The notes beneath the pieces were generated by a model that had not been told where the DNA came from, made no database searches, and worked only from the letters and a program-made list of their open reading frames with translations. Below, piece after piece: positions 2,268-10,956 of a stretch of DNA of 51,943 nt. This stretch comes from Ignavibacteriales bacterium (GTDB lineage: Bacteria > Bacteroidota > Ignavibacteria > UBA10030). Position 1 is the first letter of the stretch. Each line of letters begins with the position of its first letter. The position numbers were made by a program, and so were the translations under genes. The stretch covers positions 1 to 51,943 of the forward strand of contig JACPSI010000157.1 in the NCBI GenBank assembly GCA_016193365.1, in the 5' to 3' direction.

Positions 2268-5200
2268 TTGAAACAACGTAACGGACATTGTTCGGTGTGG
2301 AGGGTGTTCTCCTACCCCGCACTCATTCTTCTGTTCCTGGTTCTGTCGCTCGGTGCATACGTCAGGAACACAAAACCAAATCCCGCTCATCCATCAGAGA
2401 TTCTTCAAACTCCTTCCGACGACAGCGTCAAAACGCAGTCCGATACTTCCAAATTCACGCCGCGTCCACAGCAATCCGGGAAACTTTCGCGCCGCGCCAA
2501 GGCGCTCCTTCGACGCCAGGGAGGTCGTGAAAGCATGGGCGAGGGACGGGAGGCCCTGAGGGACCGGGACACGACCCGCATTATGCCCGTCGACTCAGCC
2601 GCCCGTCTTGCGCACTTCCATCACCTCCGTGAAGACCTGCCGATGGTGGATGTGCGTCGGCCTGCTCAGTATTCCCTCTATCTCCCGGATCCGCTTTCTG
2701 TCCGACATAGCGAAACTTTGGATTCGGCCCAATGGAAGTATCGCGTTCAAACCTCTGTATCCGGCTTTTCTACGAAAGTCCCTCTGGATGTGCCCTTCGA
2801 AGAATATGCCGCCCTTCGGATGGAACGTGCGATCAGGCAAAACTGGGAAGCAATGACGCAGGCATATAAAATCCAGGAAGAGAAGAAAGCAGGATTGGGT
2901 GAAGTGTTCGGGCAGATCACGAAAGTTGAAATACCAATACCGAAGAATCCGCTTTTCAGCATCTTCGGGCCAAACATTATCAAGCTTCAGATTAACGGCG
3001 CCGTCGACATCCACAGCGCTTTCAGGAATACGGAAATCGACCAGTTTATCAACAGCCCTCTGGGGAACGTGCGGAACGAGCCGGATTTTCAGCAGCAGGT
3101 TCAGGTCAACGTCAAAGGCGAAATCGGCGACAAGCTCAAGATCGACGCTGATTGGAATACGCAACGCACGTTTGAATACGAGAACCAGCTGAAGGTTCGG
3201 TACACCGGCTACGAGGACGAAATCGTCAAGAGTGTTGAGGCAGGCAACGTATCATTACCGTCGAACTCGTCCTTCATTTCCAGCAGCCAGGCGTTGTTTG
3301 GGATTAAGGCTGGCCTTCAGTTTGGGCCCCTCGCTTTAACGACGGTGGCATCGCAGAAAAAAGGGCAGATCAAGGACATTACCGTTGCGGGAGGCGCCAG
3401 GCCAACACCGTTTGAACGCAGGGCCACGGATTATTCGAGAGATCACTACTTCATCGACACGTTGTACATCCCGTTGTATGATTCGGCATTTGTCAATATA
3501 CCGGCGATCGTCAATCCGGCGAGGCAGATTCGTGAGATGGAGGTCTGGGTGTCGCGGGTTGGTGCGCAGGATCCATCGCGGGAACGAAGAGTTGTTGCGT
3601 TCATGGATGAGAACCTTGTCCTTCAGCATCAAAACAGCGTCACACTCAGGACGTCCGGTGTGTTTCAGACTCAAAAAGACTCGATTGATGCCGGCGATTA
3701 CATTAGACTGGAGCCCGATGTCGACTACAAGTTCCATGAATACGCCGGTTTCATCACGTTCAATCGCTCTTTGCAGGCTGAGCAGGCAGTCGCAGTCGCT
3801 TATTCCATTCCCGAAGGAAAAATCGGGAATTTCGGTACGCGTGATACGCTCAATCCGCTGATTATGAAACTGGTCAGGCCGCGGCTGCTTGGTCCACACC
3901 ACCGCACGGCGTGGAGGATGATGCTCAAAAACAGATATCCCCTCGGAGGGAGAGGAATCAAGAAGGACGGGTTTGACCTGAACATCTATTACCAGGTTTC
4001 AGGGAGTCCTGACATTGACAATGTGCTGCCGCAAGCAGTGAGGCTCAATGAAATGTTCGGCCTTGACCGTTTTCATCCAGACGGAAGCACGCCGGGGGCC
4101 GATGGCACATTCGATTACTTCCCACAACTCACCATTGACGAACAGCGGGGAGAGTTGATTTTCCCGACCGTGGAACCTTTTGACACATCGAGCATTTACT
4201 TCTTCTTGACACGGCGAGGAGGCTTTACGCCGGGTCAGGCAAAAACGGCGGCGGATTCATTTTCCTTTGGCGCAATCTACGACACGACGGACAACGGGGC
4301 ACGCAACAGCGACCGAAATAAGTTCGTCATACGCGGGACGATTACACCTTCTACCGCCTCATCATACAACCTCGGTTTCAACATCGTTGAAGGCAGTGTG
4401 GACGTGATTGTTGACGGACAGTCACAGCCGAAGAGTGATTACACGGTGGATTACATCACCGGGCAGGTCGTGATACGCAACCAGGCATTACTCGCGCCCG
4501 GTCGCAACCTGCAAATTCGATATGAGGCGAACGACTTGTTCCAACTTGCCTCAAAAACATTGTTGGGCGCACGGGGCGATTTTAACCTTGGGAAAAATGC
4601 GTCGCTTGGCTTCACCATCATGAATCTCAACCAGCAATCCCTCAGCGACAAGGTTCGTCTCGGAGAAGAGCCAATCAGCAACACGATTATGGGAGTGGAC
4701 GGAGGGACAAATTTTGAAGCGCCGTTTATTACGCGTGCGCTGAACTTCCTCCCCGGAATAGAAACGATCGCAGCCTCCAACATATCCATTCGCGGAGAAG
4801 CTGCCTACATGAGCCCCGACCCGAACACGCGCAAAAGCACTATTCCGCAGGATGAGGACAAAGGCATTGCATACATCGACGATTTTGAAGGTGCAAGGCG
4901 GCTGATACCCTTCGGCGTCAATTCGCTGACGTGGAAGGATGCGAGCCCGCCGTTTTACATCTCTGGCATAGACGCCTTCACGCCCACAGGAAGAAACATC
5001 CCGACGACAGCTACCGTCATCCGCGACAGCACAAGGATGTTTTCGAAAGCGAAAGCGTTCTGGTTTAATGTTCAACCGTCGGACGTCTCTACAAACGAGA
5101 TCTGGCCGGAGCGCAGCGTTGCACCCGAACAATCTCTTACCACGGTTCTGGATTTCTACATGAGGCCGGGTGCGCGGGGCGTGTATAATTATTCTCCGAA

Positions 5201-8200
5201 CCTTGACTCCACCTTGTTCGCCAACCCGCAGCAAAACTGGGCCGGCATGCAACAGCTGCTCTCTACAACGTCGACGAACGTACATGACGAGAATATTAAT
5301 TTCATCGAGCTGTGGATTAACGTGGAACGCGCTTCGACCTCGGCAAAGTTGAATATCAATATGGGATTGATCAGCGAGGATGTGATCCCCGTTTCGCGCC
5401 TTGGGTACGGGAAGCTCGACACCGAAGACGGACTGCTTAGCGGAATTCGCAATACTACGCTCAACAAGGGTGAGGACGTAGGGATCGACGGTTTGACCGA
5501 TCTTGAAGAGCGCAATCGGTACGGCGAGTTCATTAACCAATTGAACGGAAAATACACAAGCATCCTCAATCCGGATCCTTCGGGAGATAATTTTATCGAG
5601 CCTCCGGTGGGAACGGGGAGGGCGCCGCTGGGAGAGTATGAGTACGGTAACGGCACGGAAGGCAACGAGCGCACCAATAATCCGGATACCGAAGATCTGA
5701 ACCGGAACAACAACCTGGACCGGGTGAATGCATATTTCGAATACGAAATCCCTCTGGACACCACGAACGCGGATTTTCTGAAGTACAGGACGGGAGGGGG
5801 CCACAACGGGTGGCACCAGATTCGCATTCCTATAAATGAGTACACAAGGAGCATCGGTGATGCAACGTTCTCTACCGTTGAAGCGGTGCGAATGTGGGTG
5901 GCCGGAGCACAAAGCGACGTACATCTGCTGTTGACGGAAATGAACCTTGTCGGCAATCAATGGGAAGAGCTCATCAAGAAAGACAGTGTGTTTCGCGTCA
6001 GCGTTGTGAACATTGAAGACAACCCGTCGTACGTTTCTCCACCCGGCGTCGAGCGTGCGAGAGACCGTTCCCGGCCGACGCAAAACATTGTCGGCAATGA
6101 ACAGGCTCTCAATATTATTATCAACAACCTGGAGGACGGCCAGAATGTCCAAGCCATCAAGCGATTTACGTTCAAGCCTCTCGACCTCTTTAATTACCGT
6201 GCTTTGAAAATGTTCGTCCGGGGTGACCCGAGCTTCAGATTCACACAGGTCACGGCCGACTCGATAGACTACGATGCCGAGGTATTTCTGAGGTTTGGCA
6301 CGGACACGCTGAATTACTACGAATACCGGGCGCCTCTGCGGCCGGATCGTTTCCCCATTGACAACGGATGGGATCGCCTGAACGACGTGACAGTAAATTT
6401 TGCCGAGCTAACCGGAATAAAGTTATTGCGCGATAGTGCCGGTGCATTGACAAGACGCTTTCCAACTTCGAGCGGCCCATCGGGTTCGACTTTCCAGATT
6501 CGAGGGGAGCCGACGTTGACGAACGTTCGCTTCATTTCCATCGGCGTTGAAAACCCGGGGGGGAGGGGAACCACTTTTCCCCTCAAAGGTGAAGTCTGGC
6601 TGAATGAACTCCGACTCATCGATGTCGATGACACTCCCGGTTGGGCGTACCGGTTTGACACGAGTGTGAAACTCGCCGATGTCGGCAATGTCGTTTTCTC
6701 TTTTCTGAACCGTGACCCGAACTTCCACGGACTGGAGGAGCACTTCGGCTCGCGGTTGACCGGCAGGAGCTGGAATATTTCGGCCAGCTTTAGCCTGGAA
6801 AAATTCTTGCCGCAGAGTTGGACCGGGTCGGCGTTAGGGTTGACCTATTCGCACGTGGAGGGAATTCAAGTTCCTCGATATTTGCCGGGTACGGATGTTC
6901 TCGTTTCTGAAGCAGCTCAACGGACAGCAGAGGCAGTGCGTCTGCAGGGAAAATCCGATGAAGAAGCCAGGGCTTCTTCGGAAGCCTTGCGAACTCGCAC
7001 GCAGACGTTGAATATCACGGAAACATATGCTCTTCCGAGTATCAGGCTCGTCCTTCCTGTGGACTCGTGGCTTGTCCGAGAAACGATTAACCGAATGGCG
7101 TTTGGGTACACTTATACCGTGTCGCGCAGACGCGACCCTGTGACGGAATCTTTTGTGCGGTGGGACTGGAATGCGAGAGCGTCGTACGGCCTCCAATTCA
7201 GCGCGGAAAACTACCTTCAGCCCTTTGACCTGCTCGGTGATTTTTTTCTCATCAATCCATGGAGAAATCTCAAGCTGTATTACACCCCGAGGACACTCAA
7301 CGGGGCAACGACGGTCAGCCGCGGCCAGAAAAAAGAAAAAACCCGAACCCAGGGCGCGTTCAGGCCTACGGTGCGCAGCATGGCAGCCAGCCGGTCTATG
7401 ACATTCAACTGGCAATTTGTAGAGGGCGGGTTCCTGAATCCTGGTATTGACTACCAGGTGAACATCAACAGCAGCCTTGTCCACCTCGAGCTCGACCAGT
7501 TCGGCAGACAACGTTCCTTCTGGGAAATCCTCGACGACATGTTCCTGAGCGACCGCCTCGTGAACTTCGGCATCGACCAGACCTACTCGCAGGTCATAAA
7601 CCTGAACACGCGACTGGTGGTTCCGCCGGTTCTGGAGCTGGACAAGATCATTACACCTTCACTTCGTTACTCGTCTCAGTACGACTGGTCGAACAACCTG
7701 CAGGCGGGCGCCCTGGGAAAGAGCGCCGGTTGGAGCAGCAACCTCAGCATGTCTCTGGATTTCAACATAAAGAAGATCTCATCGGAGCTGTGGTCTGCCA
7801 CTCCGACGTTTGTGTCGCAGAAAGACACGGGCATGTCAAAATCGTTCGGCGAGGTTGTTGACCAACTTACGCGAGTGCTTTTCAAGGCGCCACTTTTTGA
7901 CTTTGAAAAAGTCAGCTTTACCTTCACACAGCAAAATAGGTCTCAGAACGGCGGTGTTCTCGGAGGGACTGGTTTTGCAAACATCTTCTCTCGGATTCCC
8001 TTCGTCCAGTCTTCCTTGCCGGAGTACGGACCTTCGTTGCTGTATCAACTCGGGCTTTCCTCGGATCCGCACGGAGATGTTATTCTGAAGACCAAGAGTT
8101 CATTCCCTTTCATCACAGGGTATACTGTTCCGGGGCTGCGAGCGGCTCGCAGCGGCTCAGCACTCCTGCTGACTGATGTTTTCTCCCAGTCAAATCGTAT

Positions 8201-9194
8201 GACGATACGAACATCACGGCCGTTGTGGGAAGGAGCCAGCCTGGAGCTGAACTGGAATGTGGGATGGTCCTACAATCAAAACCGGACAGTTGCGCCCGAC
8301 TCCCTGGGAACGCCTGTCGAGCAAAGCAGGGTCGTTAGCGGGGATGTTGACCGGTCGTTCCTCTCATTTCCACCGATTTTGTTTTTCGAGTTTTTCAAAA
8401 CAAGTATCGAGGATGTGAACAAAAAGTTCGAGCAATCAAAACTGGTGCCAGATGGAAGGCCCAATGACGTGAAGCTTTCTGAAGCTTTCGAGGATGGATT
8501 GGAGGCGCTGCCCATCTTTAAGAAGCTCCTCGGCGGCATCCTTCCTCGTGTAAACTGGTCTCTGCGATGGGACGGGCTCGAACGCTTACCCCTGCTGCAA
8601 ACGCTTGCCAACAGAGTAACGCTGGACCATTCCTACTCGTCGAATTATCGCCGGAGATGGAGAATAACGCCCGAGGGCACGCAAATCACAGAAAGCCAGC
8701 AAGTGACGCAGGGGTTTTCCCCACTGGCAGGACTTAATATTACATTTAAAGATTTCGTCAAAGGAAATTTCACCGCAACGATAAGGTACAGCGCCATTAC
8801 CTCGTTTGATCTTGTGCCATCGATTTTTAATATCACGGAATCCGGGACGAACGATATTTCAATGACAGCAAATTTTAACCGCCAGGGATTTGAGCTTCCA
8901 GTGTTCGGCCTTTCACTTTCGAACGATATCGACCTGAGCTTTTCGTATACCTATGCGAAGACTTCCCGCAAACTCTACGACATGAAAGCCGTCCTCTTTA
9001 AAAAGGAAGGGACACCCCTTGAGGGTTCCAGTCGAACGGTTTTGGAGCCGCGCATTCGTTACGTCCTCAGCGCTCGCGTCACCGCATCGTTCTACTACCG
9101 CTACACGAAGATCAAACCGGACGCCGACGGCTCGAAGATTCCGGGCTCTACCGTCAACGAAGGCGGTCTCGACGTACGCGTGGCGATTCAATAA
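2268..9194 (+). CDS. sprA: SprA/Sov-family T9SS outer-membrane translocon
   Basis: This 2308-residue protein has the size and sequence character of SprA (Sov in Porphyromonas), the very large beta-barrel that forms the outer-membrane channel of the type IX secretion system. The N-terminus has a basic start and a hydrophobic stretch (about residues 15-30), consistent with a signal peptide or anchor. Family-like segments include the region after NPLFSIFGPNIIKLQINGA (a conserved barrel block), GYEDEIVKSVEAGNVSLPSNS, and the later block DEDKGIAYIDDFEGARRLIP. The C-terminal third is rich in alternating beta-strand patterns expected of barrel strands. The start is TTG at 2268; a GTG ten codons on is the alternative. 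The gene stands alone between the phosphorelay genes and porX. It is full length with no frameshift. Confidence 0.95.
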   Translation: MKQRNGHCSVWRVFSYPALILLFLVLSLGAYVRNTKPNPAHPSEILQTPSDDSVKTQSDTSKFTPRPQQSGKLSRRAKALLRRQGGRESMGEGREALRDRDTTRIMPVDSAARLAHFHHLREDLPMVDVRRPAQYSLYLPDPLSVRHSETLDSAQWKYRVQTSVSGFSTKVPLDVPFEEYAALRMERAIRQNWEAMTQAYKIQEEKKAGLGEVFGQITKVEIPIPKNPLFSIFGPNIIKLQINGAVDIHSAFRNTEIDQFINSPLGNVRNEPDFQQQVQVNVKGEIGDKLKIDADWNTQRTFEYENQLKVRYTGYEDEIVKSVEAGNVSLPSNSSFISSSQALFGIKAGLQFGPLALTTVASQKKGQIKDITVAGGARPTPFERRATDYSRDHYFIDTLYIPLYDSAFVNIPAIVNPARQIREMEVWVSRVGAQDPSRERRVVAFMDENLVLQHQNSVTLRTSGVFQTQKDSIDAGDYIRLEPDVDYKFHEYAGFITFNRSLQAEQAVAVAYSIPEGKIGNFGTRDTLNPLIMKLVRPRLLGPHHRTAWRMMLKNRYPLGGRGIKKDGFDLNIYYQVSGSPDIDNVLPQAVRLNEMFGLDRFHPDGSTPGADGTFDYFPQLTIDEQRGELIFPTVEPFDTSSIYFFLTRRGGFTPGQAKTAADSFSFGAIYDTTDNGARNSDRNKFVIRGTITPSTASSYNLGFNIVEGSVDVIVDGQSQPKSDYTVDYITGQVVIRNQALLAPGRNLQIRYEANDLFQLASKTLLGARGDFNLGKNASLGFTIMNLNQQSLSDKVRLGEEPISNTIMGVDGGTNFEAPFITRALNFLPGIETIAASNISIRGEAAYMSPDPNTRKSTIPQDEDKGIAYIDDFEGARRLIPFGVNSLTWKDASPPFYISGIDAFTPTGRNIPTTATVIRDSTRMFSKAKAFWFNVQPSDVSTNEIWPERSVAPEQSLTTVLDFYMRPGARGVYNYSPNLDSTLFANPQQNWAGMQQLLSTTSTNVHDENINFIELWINVERASTSAKLNINMGLISEDVIPVSRLGYGKLDTEDGLLSGIRNTTLNKGEDVGIDGLTDLEERNRYGEFINQLNGKYTSILNPDPSGDNFIEPPVGTGRAPLGEYEYGNGTEGNERTNNPDTEDLNRNNNLDRVNAYFEYEIPLDTTNADFLKYRTGGGHNGWHQIRIPINEYTRSIGDATFSTVEAVRMWVAGAQSDVHLLLTEMNLVGNQWEELIKKDSVFRVSVVNIEDNPSYVSPPGVERARDRSRPTQNIVGNEQALNIIINNLEDGQNVQAIKRFTFKPLDLFNYRALKMFVRGDPSFRFTQVTADSIDYDAEVFLRFGTDTLNYYEYRAPLRPDRFPIDNGWDRLNDVTVNFAELTGIKLLRDSAGALTRRFPTSSGPSGSTFQIRGEPTLTNVRFISIGVENPGGRGTTFPLKGEVWLNELRLIDVDDTPGWAYRFDTSVKLADVGNVVFSFLNRDPNFHGLEEHFGSRLTGRSWNISASFSLEKFLPQSWTGSALGLTYSHVEGIQVPRYLPGTDVLVSEAAQRTAEAVRLQGKSDEEARASSEALRTRTQTLNITETYALPSIRLVLPVDSWLVRETINRMAFGYTYTVSRRRDPVTESFVRWDWNARASYGLQFSAENYLQPFDLLGDFFLINPWRNLKLYYTPRTLNGATTVSRGQKKEKTRTQGAFRPTVRSMAASRSMTFNWQFVEGGFLNPGIDYQVNINSSLVHLELDQFGRQRSFWEILDDMFLSDRLVNFGIDQTYSQVINLNTRLVVPPVLELDKIITPSLRYSSQYDWSNNLQAGALGKSAGWSSNLSMSLDFNIKKISSELWSATPTFVSQKDTGMSKSFGEVVDQLTRVLFKAPLFDFEKVSFTFTQQNRSQNGGVLGGTGFANIFSRIPFVQSSLPEYGPSLLYQLGLSSDPHGDVILKTKSSFPFITGYTVPGLRAARSGSALLLTDVFSQSNRMTIRTSRPLWEGASLELNWNVGWSYNQNRTVAPDSLGTPVEQSRVVSGDVDRSFLSFPPILFFEFFKTSIEDVNKKFEQSKLVPDGRPNDVKLSEAFEDGLEALPIFKKLLGGILPRVNWSLRWDGLERLPLLQTLANRVTLDHSYSSNYRRRWRITPEGTQITESQQVTQGFSPLAGLNITFKDFVKGNFTATIRYSAITSFDLVPSIFNITESGTNDISMTANFNRQGFELPVFGLSLSNDIDLSFSYTYAKTSRKLYDMKAVLFKKEGTPLEGSSRTVLEPRIRYVLSARVTASFYYRYTKIKPDADGSKIPGSTVNEGGLDVRVAIQ

Positions 9195-9197
9195 CAC

Positions 9198-9212
9198 AAC
9201 CTTGTCAAGGTT
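9198..9212. repeat. Palindrome copy 1 (AACCTTGTCAAGGTT)
   Basis: A 15-bp palindrome lying four bases after the sprA stop codon. With copy 2 (9229-9242) it forms a perfect 16-bp stem (9196-9211 pairing with 9229-9244) around a 17-nt loop, so the transcript would fold into a strong hairpin directly after sprA. No T-run follows it. It could act as an RNA 3'-end stabiliser, a REP-like element or a regulator binding site. Confidence 0.75.
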
Positions 9213-9228
9213 ATCGAGTTTTACGTTG

Positions 9229-9242
9229 ACCTTGACAAGGTT
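9229..9242. repeat. Palindrome copy 2 (ACCTTGACAAGGTT)
   Basis: Second copy of the CCTTGNCAAGG palindrome between sprA and porX, in the orientation opposite to copy 1 at the central base. It forms the 3' arm of the long stem with copy 1. Confidence 0.75.
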
Positions 9243-9300
9243 GTAAGGTATCAGGTCGTGCAAAGTGAACACTGTCAAAGACGATAGAACTCTTTGGTAT

Positions 9301-9313
9301 CCTTGACAAGGTT
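9301..9313. repeat. Palindrome copy 3 (CCTTGACAAGGTT)
   Basis: Third copy, 72 bp after copy 2 and about 70 bp before the porX start codon. It contains a TTGACA hexamer, but no acceptable -10 box lies 16-18 bp downstream, so the resemblance to a -35 box is probably coincidental. Its place close upstream of porX would suit an operator or a stem-loop element. Confidence 0.7.
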
Positions 9314-9384
9314 ATACAAGCAAAACCTCACGCAGCCACGAGGTTCGTTGATTCTCTGGGCTTTAATAACTATTTTGACATCCG

Positions 9385-10956
9385 ATGAATAACACTGTGA
9401 ACACGAAAAAGATACTCTGGGTAGACGACGAAATCGACCTTCTCAAGGCTCACCTGAAGCTCCTGGAACAAAAAGGATACTTTGTCGAGACGGCGACGAA
9501 CGGCGAAGATGCCATCGACCTGGTGAAGGAAAAAAGCTACGACCTTGTTTTTCTCGACGAGATGATGCCCGGCAAAGGAGGGCTTGAAACCCTCGCCGAA
9601 ATCAAGGACATCGTGCCTGCCCTGCCGGTCGTTATGGTGACCAAAAGCGAAGCCGAAAGCCTTATGGAGGATGCCATCGGCGGGAAGATCACTGATTACC
9701 TCGTCAAACCGGTCAACCCAAGTCAGATTCTTTTGGCGTGCAAGAAAATCCTTGATGCCAAAAAGATCGCGGGCGAATACGTTTCGCGTGACTATGCCGT
9801 GGAGTTCCAGAAAATCACGCTCTCCTTGATGAACCCCATGGCCGAACAGGGGTGGATAGACCTCTACGTCAAATTGACAAACTGGGACGTCGAGCTCGAT
9901 GAACATCCCGGCCTTGGCCTTCATCAGACACTCATCGACCAGAAACGGGAATGTAACGTTGAATTTGGGAAGTTCGTCGACCGCAATTACCGGAATTGGA
10001 TCGAACGCCCCGACCGTCCCGTGCCGCTGTCTCCGGACGTGATGGAACGGTTTGTCCTCCCGCAGCTCAACGAAAAGTCGTCGGTGTTCTTTTTTGTCAT
10101 CGATTGCCTGCGCCTCGACCAGTGGTTGACGATGGAGCAGATGCTCGGTGACTACTTCACGATAGAAAAAGACTACTACTTCAGTATCCTCCCGACAGCG
10201 ACACCGTATTCCCGGAACGCAATCTTCAGCGGCCTCTTTCCTCTCGACCTCGAAAAACGGTTTCCGGAAATCTGGCAGGCCGGCGACGACGACGAAAGCA
10301 GCCGCAACAGGCACGAGCATCAGCTTATGGAAAAATTGCTCGAACGGAAGAACATCCAGCTCAAGCCCGAGCCCAAGTACGTCAAGATCCTCGATGCGGA
10401 ATTCGGACGCCAGGTGGAAAACAACATCCTTTCCTATGCTCAGGGAAGGCTCACGGCCATCGTCGTGAATTTTATCGACATGCTGGCGCACGGGAGGTCG
10501 GATTCGCCTCTGTTAAAAGAAATTGCACCCGACGAGCCCGCGTACCGTTCGCTCACGCAGTCCTGGTTCCAACATTCTTCTCTTTTCAGCATGCTCAAGA
10601 CCCTCTCGCGCCAGAAACAGGTGAAGATTGTCATTACGACAGACCACGGCAGCGTCCGCTGTCTAAGGGGGACGAAAGTCATTGGTGATCGCGAGGCGTC
10701 GACAAATCTCAGGTACAAGTTCGGGCGTAACCTGAAAGTGGAAGACAAAGAGGCAGTTTTTGTGAAGAACCCTACGGATTTTAAACTGCCGCGAGGGAGC
10801 GTGACGACGAATTATGTGATTGCGAAAGAAGATTACTACTTTGTCTATCCGACAGACTACCACAGATACCTCAACCAGTATCGTGACAGCTTCCAGCATG
10901 GCGGGATTTCGATGGAAGAAATGATCCTCCCGGTCGTCACGCTCAGACCCAGATAA
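9385..10956 (+). CDS. porX: PorX-type response regulator with PglZ phosphatase-fold domain
   Basis: The 523-residue protein starts with a receiver domain (about 8-125) with D14/D15, phospho-acceptor D58 in LVFLDEMMPG and K108. The rest is a PglZ alkaline-phosphatase-superfamily domain. Metal-site candidates are D240 (FFFVIDCLRLDQ), the T271/T273 area (LPTATPYSRNAIFSG), D365/H369 (NFIDMLAHGRSD), D420/H421 (TTDHGSVR) and H505 (FQHGG). Length, architecture and the D58 position match PorX, which controls T9SS gene expression with the kinase PorY and sigma factor SigP in Porphyromonas. It lies immediately downstream of sprA and 3 bp before tsaE. No PorY-like kinase is seen in the window. Cytoplasmic. 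Confidence 0.93.
   Translation: MNNTVNTKKILWVDDEIDLLKAHLKLLEQKGYFVETATNGEDAIDLVKEKSYDLVFLDEMMPGKGGLETLAEIKDIVPALPVVMVTKSEAESLMEDAIGGKITDYLVKPVNPSQILLACKKILDAKKIAGEYVSRDYAVEFQKITLSLMNPMAEQGWIDLYVKLTNWDVELDEHPGLGLHQTLIDQKRECNVEFGKFVDRNYRNWIERPDRPVPLSPDVMERFVLPQLNEKSSVFFFVIDCLRLDQWLTMEQMLGDYFTIEKDYYFSILPTATPYSRNAIFSGLFPLDLEKRFPEIWQAGDDDESSRNRHEHQLMEKLLERKNIQLKPEPKYVKILDAEFGRQVENNILSYAQGRLTAIVVNFIDMLAHGRSDSPLLKEIAPDEPAYRSLTQSWFQHSSLFSMLKTLSRQKQVKIVITTDHGSVRCLRGTKVIGDREASTNLRYKFGRNLKVEDKEAVFVKNPTDFKLPRGSVTTNYVIAKEDYYFVYPTDYHRYLNQYRDSFQHGGISMEEMILPVVTLRPR

Follow-up and report, generated by a model that had tools for sequence, protein, structure and literature searches.

A probable copy of a RAYT-associated, REP/REPIN-type repeat between sprA and porX of an Ignavibacteriales bacterium

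Classical REPs usually number more than 100 copies per genome (PMC2817692) and have been reported to lie near stop codons (PMC3733652). In Pseudomonas fluorescens, short intergenic REP doublets in inverted orientation (REPINs) form a hairpin and are associated with Y1 transposases, the RAYTs (PMC3116915; RAYTs, PMC2817692), and they show conserved ends, a freer spacer and compensatory changes. TIR families are non-GTAG repeats, some of them self-complementary, that flank RAYT-like transposases (TIRYTs) and are also dispersed in moderate numbers, as dimers or clusters, and the CGTC-tagged REPs of Chlorobi and Bacteroidetes are small, palindromic and dispersed, mostly arranged as head-to-head dimers, without an associated transposase (PMC3733652). 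Here, we describe three palindromes and a decayed fourth between the genes sprA and porX of an Ignavibacteriales bacterium (GCA_016193365.1), which together are very probably a single copy of a mobile, non-coding repeat of small size and REP/REPIN type, assigned to RAYTs because the same palindromes flank RAYT genes in related genomes, sisters with sisters.

The repeat is short, non-coding, palindromic and dispersed between genes, its inverted doublets form one hairpin, it has been copied as a unit, and it flanks RAYTs in relatives. It shares with the P. fluorescens REPINs all the traits listed above, and differs from them in having no GTAG tag, a lower copy number, arms that are each a near-perfect palindrome, and no cognate RAYT found in its own genome. 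A RAYT in the same genome is usual among REPs but not universal, and because RAYT loss has been reported in some REP hosts (PMC3733652), its absence does not exclude REP membership. As in the TIR families, a RAYT-like gene is flanked by non-GTAG repeats that are also scattered in moderate abundance, in dimers or clusters, although the sequence differs and the hosts here are Ignavibacteria. The small size, palindromic form, dispersal and head-to-head pairing recall the CGTC-tagged REPs, but the present family has RAYTs and carries no CGTC tag. No consistent GTAG or CGTC tag was found at doublet edges or in loops, either in the genome studied (G000; 3.16 Mb, 167 contigs, 97% complete, assigned to Ignavibacteria through its PorX relatives) or in the related genome G020, so the repeat lies outside both REP superfamilies; its copy number (tens of palindromes in 23 clusters) is also modest compared with theirs. 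Judged by its sequence features, the element fits the RAYT-associated REP/TIR kind, with its TIR likeness given by flanking repeats and dispersed copies. Rfam holds no family that matches the element, and no earlier description of the palindrome sequence was found in the literature searched.

The window, the whole stretch of 51,943 nucleotides analysed (contig JACPSI010000157.1), carries on its plus strand sprA (2295-9194, stop codon 9192-9194; PF14349, SprA_N) followed by porX (9385-10956; PF00072 and PF08665, a response regulator with a PglZ domain). An earlier sequence-only reading had named both genes correctly and had rightly placed three near-identical palindromes between the sprA stop and the porX start, all on the plus strand: P1 (AACCTTGTCAAGGTT, 9198-9212), P2 (GACCTTGACAAGGTT, 9228-9242) and P4 (ATCCTTGACAAGGTT, 9299-9313). 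That reading lacked a decayed fourth, P3 (ACACTGTCAAAGA, 9269-9281, plus strand), which has four mismatches to ACCTTGNCAAGGT and is read as a palindrome relic because a paralogue on contig C81 keeps the same palindrome intact (ACCTTGTCAAGGA). P1 and P4 form the 5' and 3' ends of the whole element (114 bp, 9199-9312). P2 is the inverted partner of P1, and the two pair as had been proposed, with a stem of 18 bp including one G-U pair (arms 9196-9213 and 9227-9244) that is slightly longer than the 16 bp first given. The palindrome region folds far better than shuffled sequences (z -4.2 as RNA, -4.9 as DNA). Within the window, CCTTGNCAAGG has nine matches with at most one mismatch against 1.7 expected from shuffles, and its three exact matches all fall in the sprA-porX gap. 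A promoter-like block (TTGATTCTC...CTTTAAT...TAYTTT; 9347-9375, plus strand) stands before porX, outside the element.

Genome-wide, the exact 13-mer ACCTTGNCAAGGT occurs 34 times in G000, compared with two occurrences of the reversed control. One of the 34 was excluded as a repeat copy, being the anticodon arm of tRNA-Gly(GCC) on contig C126 (L064 4200-4273), which reads ACCTTGGCAAGGT and mimics the repeat, probably by coincidence; G/C-centred single matches in relatives may be the same tRNA mimic. The remainder make up 23 clusters, all intergenic according to a simple gene finder; three single one-mismatch matches inside genes (C135, C137 and C112) were taken as chance. Neighbouring genes are unrelated housekeeping genes and include ruvA/ruvB, ccmE/ccmF, cydA (cytochrome bd subunit I), aconitase/moaC, lptF and znuA (a zinc-uptake protein), as well as thpR/recA/cinA (named by eye). 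T9SS core genes are touched by only one of the 23 clusters, that between sprA and porX, and cluster C150 adjoins a gene with a sub-threshold match to a T9SS sorting tail. The sequence-only reading had proposed this count with its gene context, and had named hundreds of copies between unrelated genes without a link to T9SS as evidence against its suggestions; the number is far smaller, while the missing link to T9SS is borne out.

The paralogue on C81 (1786-1897) is identical to the 114-bp unit of the window at 103 of 112 aligned bases (92%), and the similarity stops at both outer palindromes, with 60 bp on each side unrelated. The unit was therefore copied as a whole and, together with relatives that have no element at this site, this comparison of sequences suggests that it is mobile. 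Clusters also tend to lie close behind genes: among those with a neighbouring gene end, 11 of 17 in G000 (6.6 expected) and 13 of 17 in G020 (3.2 expected) are within 20 nt of a stop codon, where expectations come from random placement with each cluster kept in its own gap and gene calls are simple. Six clusters in G000 lie between divergent genes.

At its simplest, the repeat is a doublet, in which two near-identical palindromes of 13-15 bp are inverted relative to each other and able to pair into a long hairpin. In G000 the common architecture is P1-(16-17 nt)-P2, either alone or followed by an inverted P3-P4, so that a pair of doublets often meets head to head. Across eight genomes, 62 units were compared and 52 of them have doublet partners whose centre bases are complementary, a count that shared descent explains in part. 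A few double changes preserve pairing across the doublet and break the local palindrome (C20, C45, G020:L178 and the downstream repeat of G046:C4), of which those at C20 and C45 may have one common origin; the opposite compensation, within one palindrome and not across the doublet, was not seen among the units compared. Stronger constraint on palindromes than on loops was considered and rejected by eye at the ruvAB and moaC sites, where G000 and G001 differ at similar rates in both, and we therefore claim no host-level selection. Some doublet loops in G020 (L186, L182) hold another palindromic repeat, CCCGCC...GGCGGG, and are thus nested repeats.

Exact doublets are present in 17 of 294 genomes of the class (reversed control, zero), and are rare in the phylum beyond this class set (5 of 396 genomes, four of those five in the same class). 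The same palindrome lies on both sides of RAYT genes (Y1_Tnp, PF01797) at G020:C149, G011:C31, G046:C4 and G115:C23, and on one side of the RAYT at G109:C62; the G020 protein has an HUH-like motif, NHYHLVL. Sister RAYTs are accompanied by sister palindromes, namely CCTTGCGAAGG (G008, G115, G005), CCTTCNGAAGG (G011:C3) and GATGGANTCCATC (G001, G272). On the RAYT tree, the four palindrome labels need three changes, which is the minimum possible; none of 200 shuffles reached so low a count. Of the five CCTTGWCAAGG RAYTs, four group together with support and that of G011:C31 floats, so that the five are not one resolved clade. G000 (97% complete) yielded no RAYT from the matching clade; the nearest, on contig C154, is 39% identical and has none of these palindromes and no repeats above shuffled background at its ends. 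The eight Y1_Tnp matches of G000 were also set aside as a source, as none has the palindrome within 1.5 kb. The copies in G000 look orphaned, since no matching RAYT was found there. The RAYTs of G001:C233 (L252) and G272:C126 (L259), with GATGGANTCCATC-type doublets on both sides, represent a separate repeat family; their nearest relative in G000, on contig C50, is without perfect palindromes.

The sprA-porX gap was compared across porX loci of 17 family members and 80 catalogue loci, some from the same species. The gap in relatives is mostly short (median 66 bp where measurable), and that of the window is 190 bp, or 76 bp minus the element. No CCTTGNCAAGG palindrome occurs in the gap among the 80 catalogue loci or in the other relatives' gaps inspected; the closest comparison is missing from this set because G001, the only genome of the same genus, gave no porX match above the cut-off. 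The promoter-like block before porX is common to several relatives without the element and is intact in the window. Short, element-free gaps and the intact block thus indicate, from sequence, that the element was most likely inserted in this lineage between the sprA stop and the promoter-like block of porX.

These observations bear on the regulatory options raised by the sequence-only reading, the first of which was binding by a regulator, whether linked to PorX or not. As operators of a T9SS regulator, the palindromes would be contacted by dimers. Odd 13-bp palindromes do resemble dimer binding sites, and successive starts lie about 30 bp apart, close to three turns of the helix, but 22 of the 23 clusters are away from T9SS core genes and no enrichment upstream of T9SS genes was seen. 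PorX, with its receiver and PglZ domains, has no match to a DNA-binding domain, relatives keep sprA and porX without the palindromes, many copies sit at gene 3' ends, and partners consistently lie in opposite orientation, a T centre preceding an A centre, an arrangement for which a symmetric operator would have no need; we consider an operator extremely improbable. That the element is instead an mRNA feature kept by selection at the site, ending sprA transcription or protecting its 3' end and so separating sprA from porX, is unlikely. It is not conserved, most relatives' gaps being short and without such a hairpin, and other copies in G000 lie between divergent genes, even though the 18-bp stem begins 2 nt past the stop codon of sprA, an excess of copies lies within 20 nt of stop codons and porX has a promoter-like block of its own. 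No plus-strand terminator was called at the element, and the U-tract that accompanies the GC-rich hairpin of an intrinsic terminator is absent, with no T run after P2 or P4. An mRNA effect could still arise as a secondary effect of a mobile repeat.

An mRNA role would also draw on the same gap in G003 (L275) and G018 (L281), which carries a different hairpin repeat, the doublet ACCTGACAGGT...ACCTGTCAGGT. Doublets of ACCTGACAGGT number 14 in G003, 20 in G018 and five in G000. It is distinctly unlikely that the gap recurrently captures hairpin repeats of different families (CCTTGWCAAGG here, ACCTGACAGGT in G003 and G018) with the hairpin being useful there; if true, the hairpin might, for example, uncouple the T9SS translocon gene from the regulator gene by serving as a 3'-end or insulating element. 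Head-to-head doublets forming a long inverted repeat, and the lack of a matching RAYT in G000, would also suit a MITE of some other transposase with an accidental RAYT neighbourhood. We regard this as highly improbable, as five genomes have the palindrome close beside RAYT genes, sister RAYTs go with sister palindromes, and no target-site duplications are visible by eye around the outer palindromes. The third option of the sequence-only reading, a REP-like repeat, agrees with the dispersal between unrelated genes, the copying as a unit, the absence from relatives' gaps and the flanking of RAYTs in relatives.

For the RAYT-associated REP/REPIN-type repeat, the mechanism proposed by analogy with REPINs (PMC3116915) and TIR-flanked RAYT-like genes (PMC3733652) is that the hairpin, in the form of single-stranded DNA, is recognised by a RAYT, an IS200/IS605-type Y1 transposase, which copies or moves it to intergenic sites elsewhere, frequently close behind a stop codon. 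Spread of the repeat by a RAYT is, on this analogy, probable. Recognition would require intact palindromes alone, and the loops could drift freely because only the palindromes must stay intact; conserved palindromes and variable loops would fit such a requirement. The copy in the window would have come to lie 4 bp past the stop codon of sprA and before the preserved promoter-like block of porX, and any putative effect on the mRNA of either gene would be a by-product.

An apparent T9SS regulatory site is thus better read as a probable mobile repeat, which advises caution in taking such palindromes as operators. Ignavibacteria appear to hold a RAYT-REP system in which sister transposases occur with the sister palindromes CCTTGWCAAGG, CCTTGCGAAGG, CCTTCNGAAGG and GATGGANTCCATC, a natural series that could reveal how a RAYT recognises its repeat without a GTAG tag. 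Among these transposases, the RAYT frame of G011:C3 (L245 703-1965) continues in frame into an RsmI-like rRNA methyltransferase, giving 420 aa in a possible fusion.
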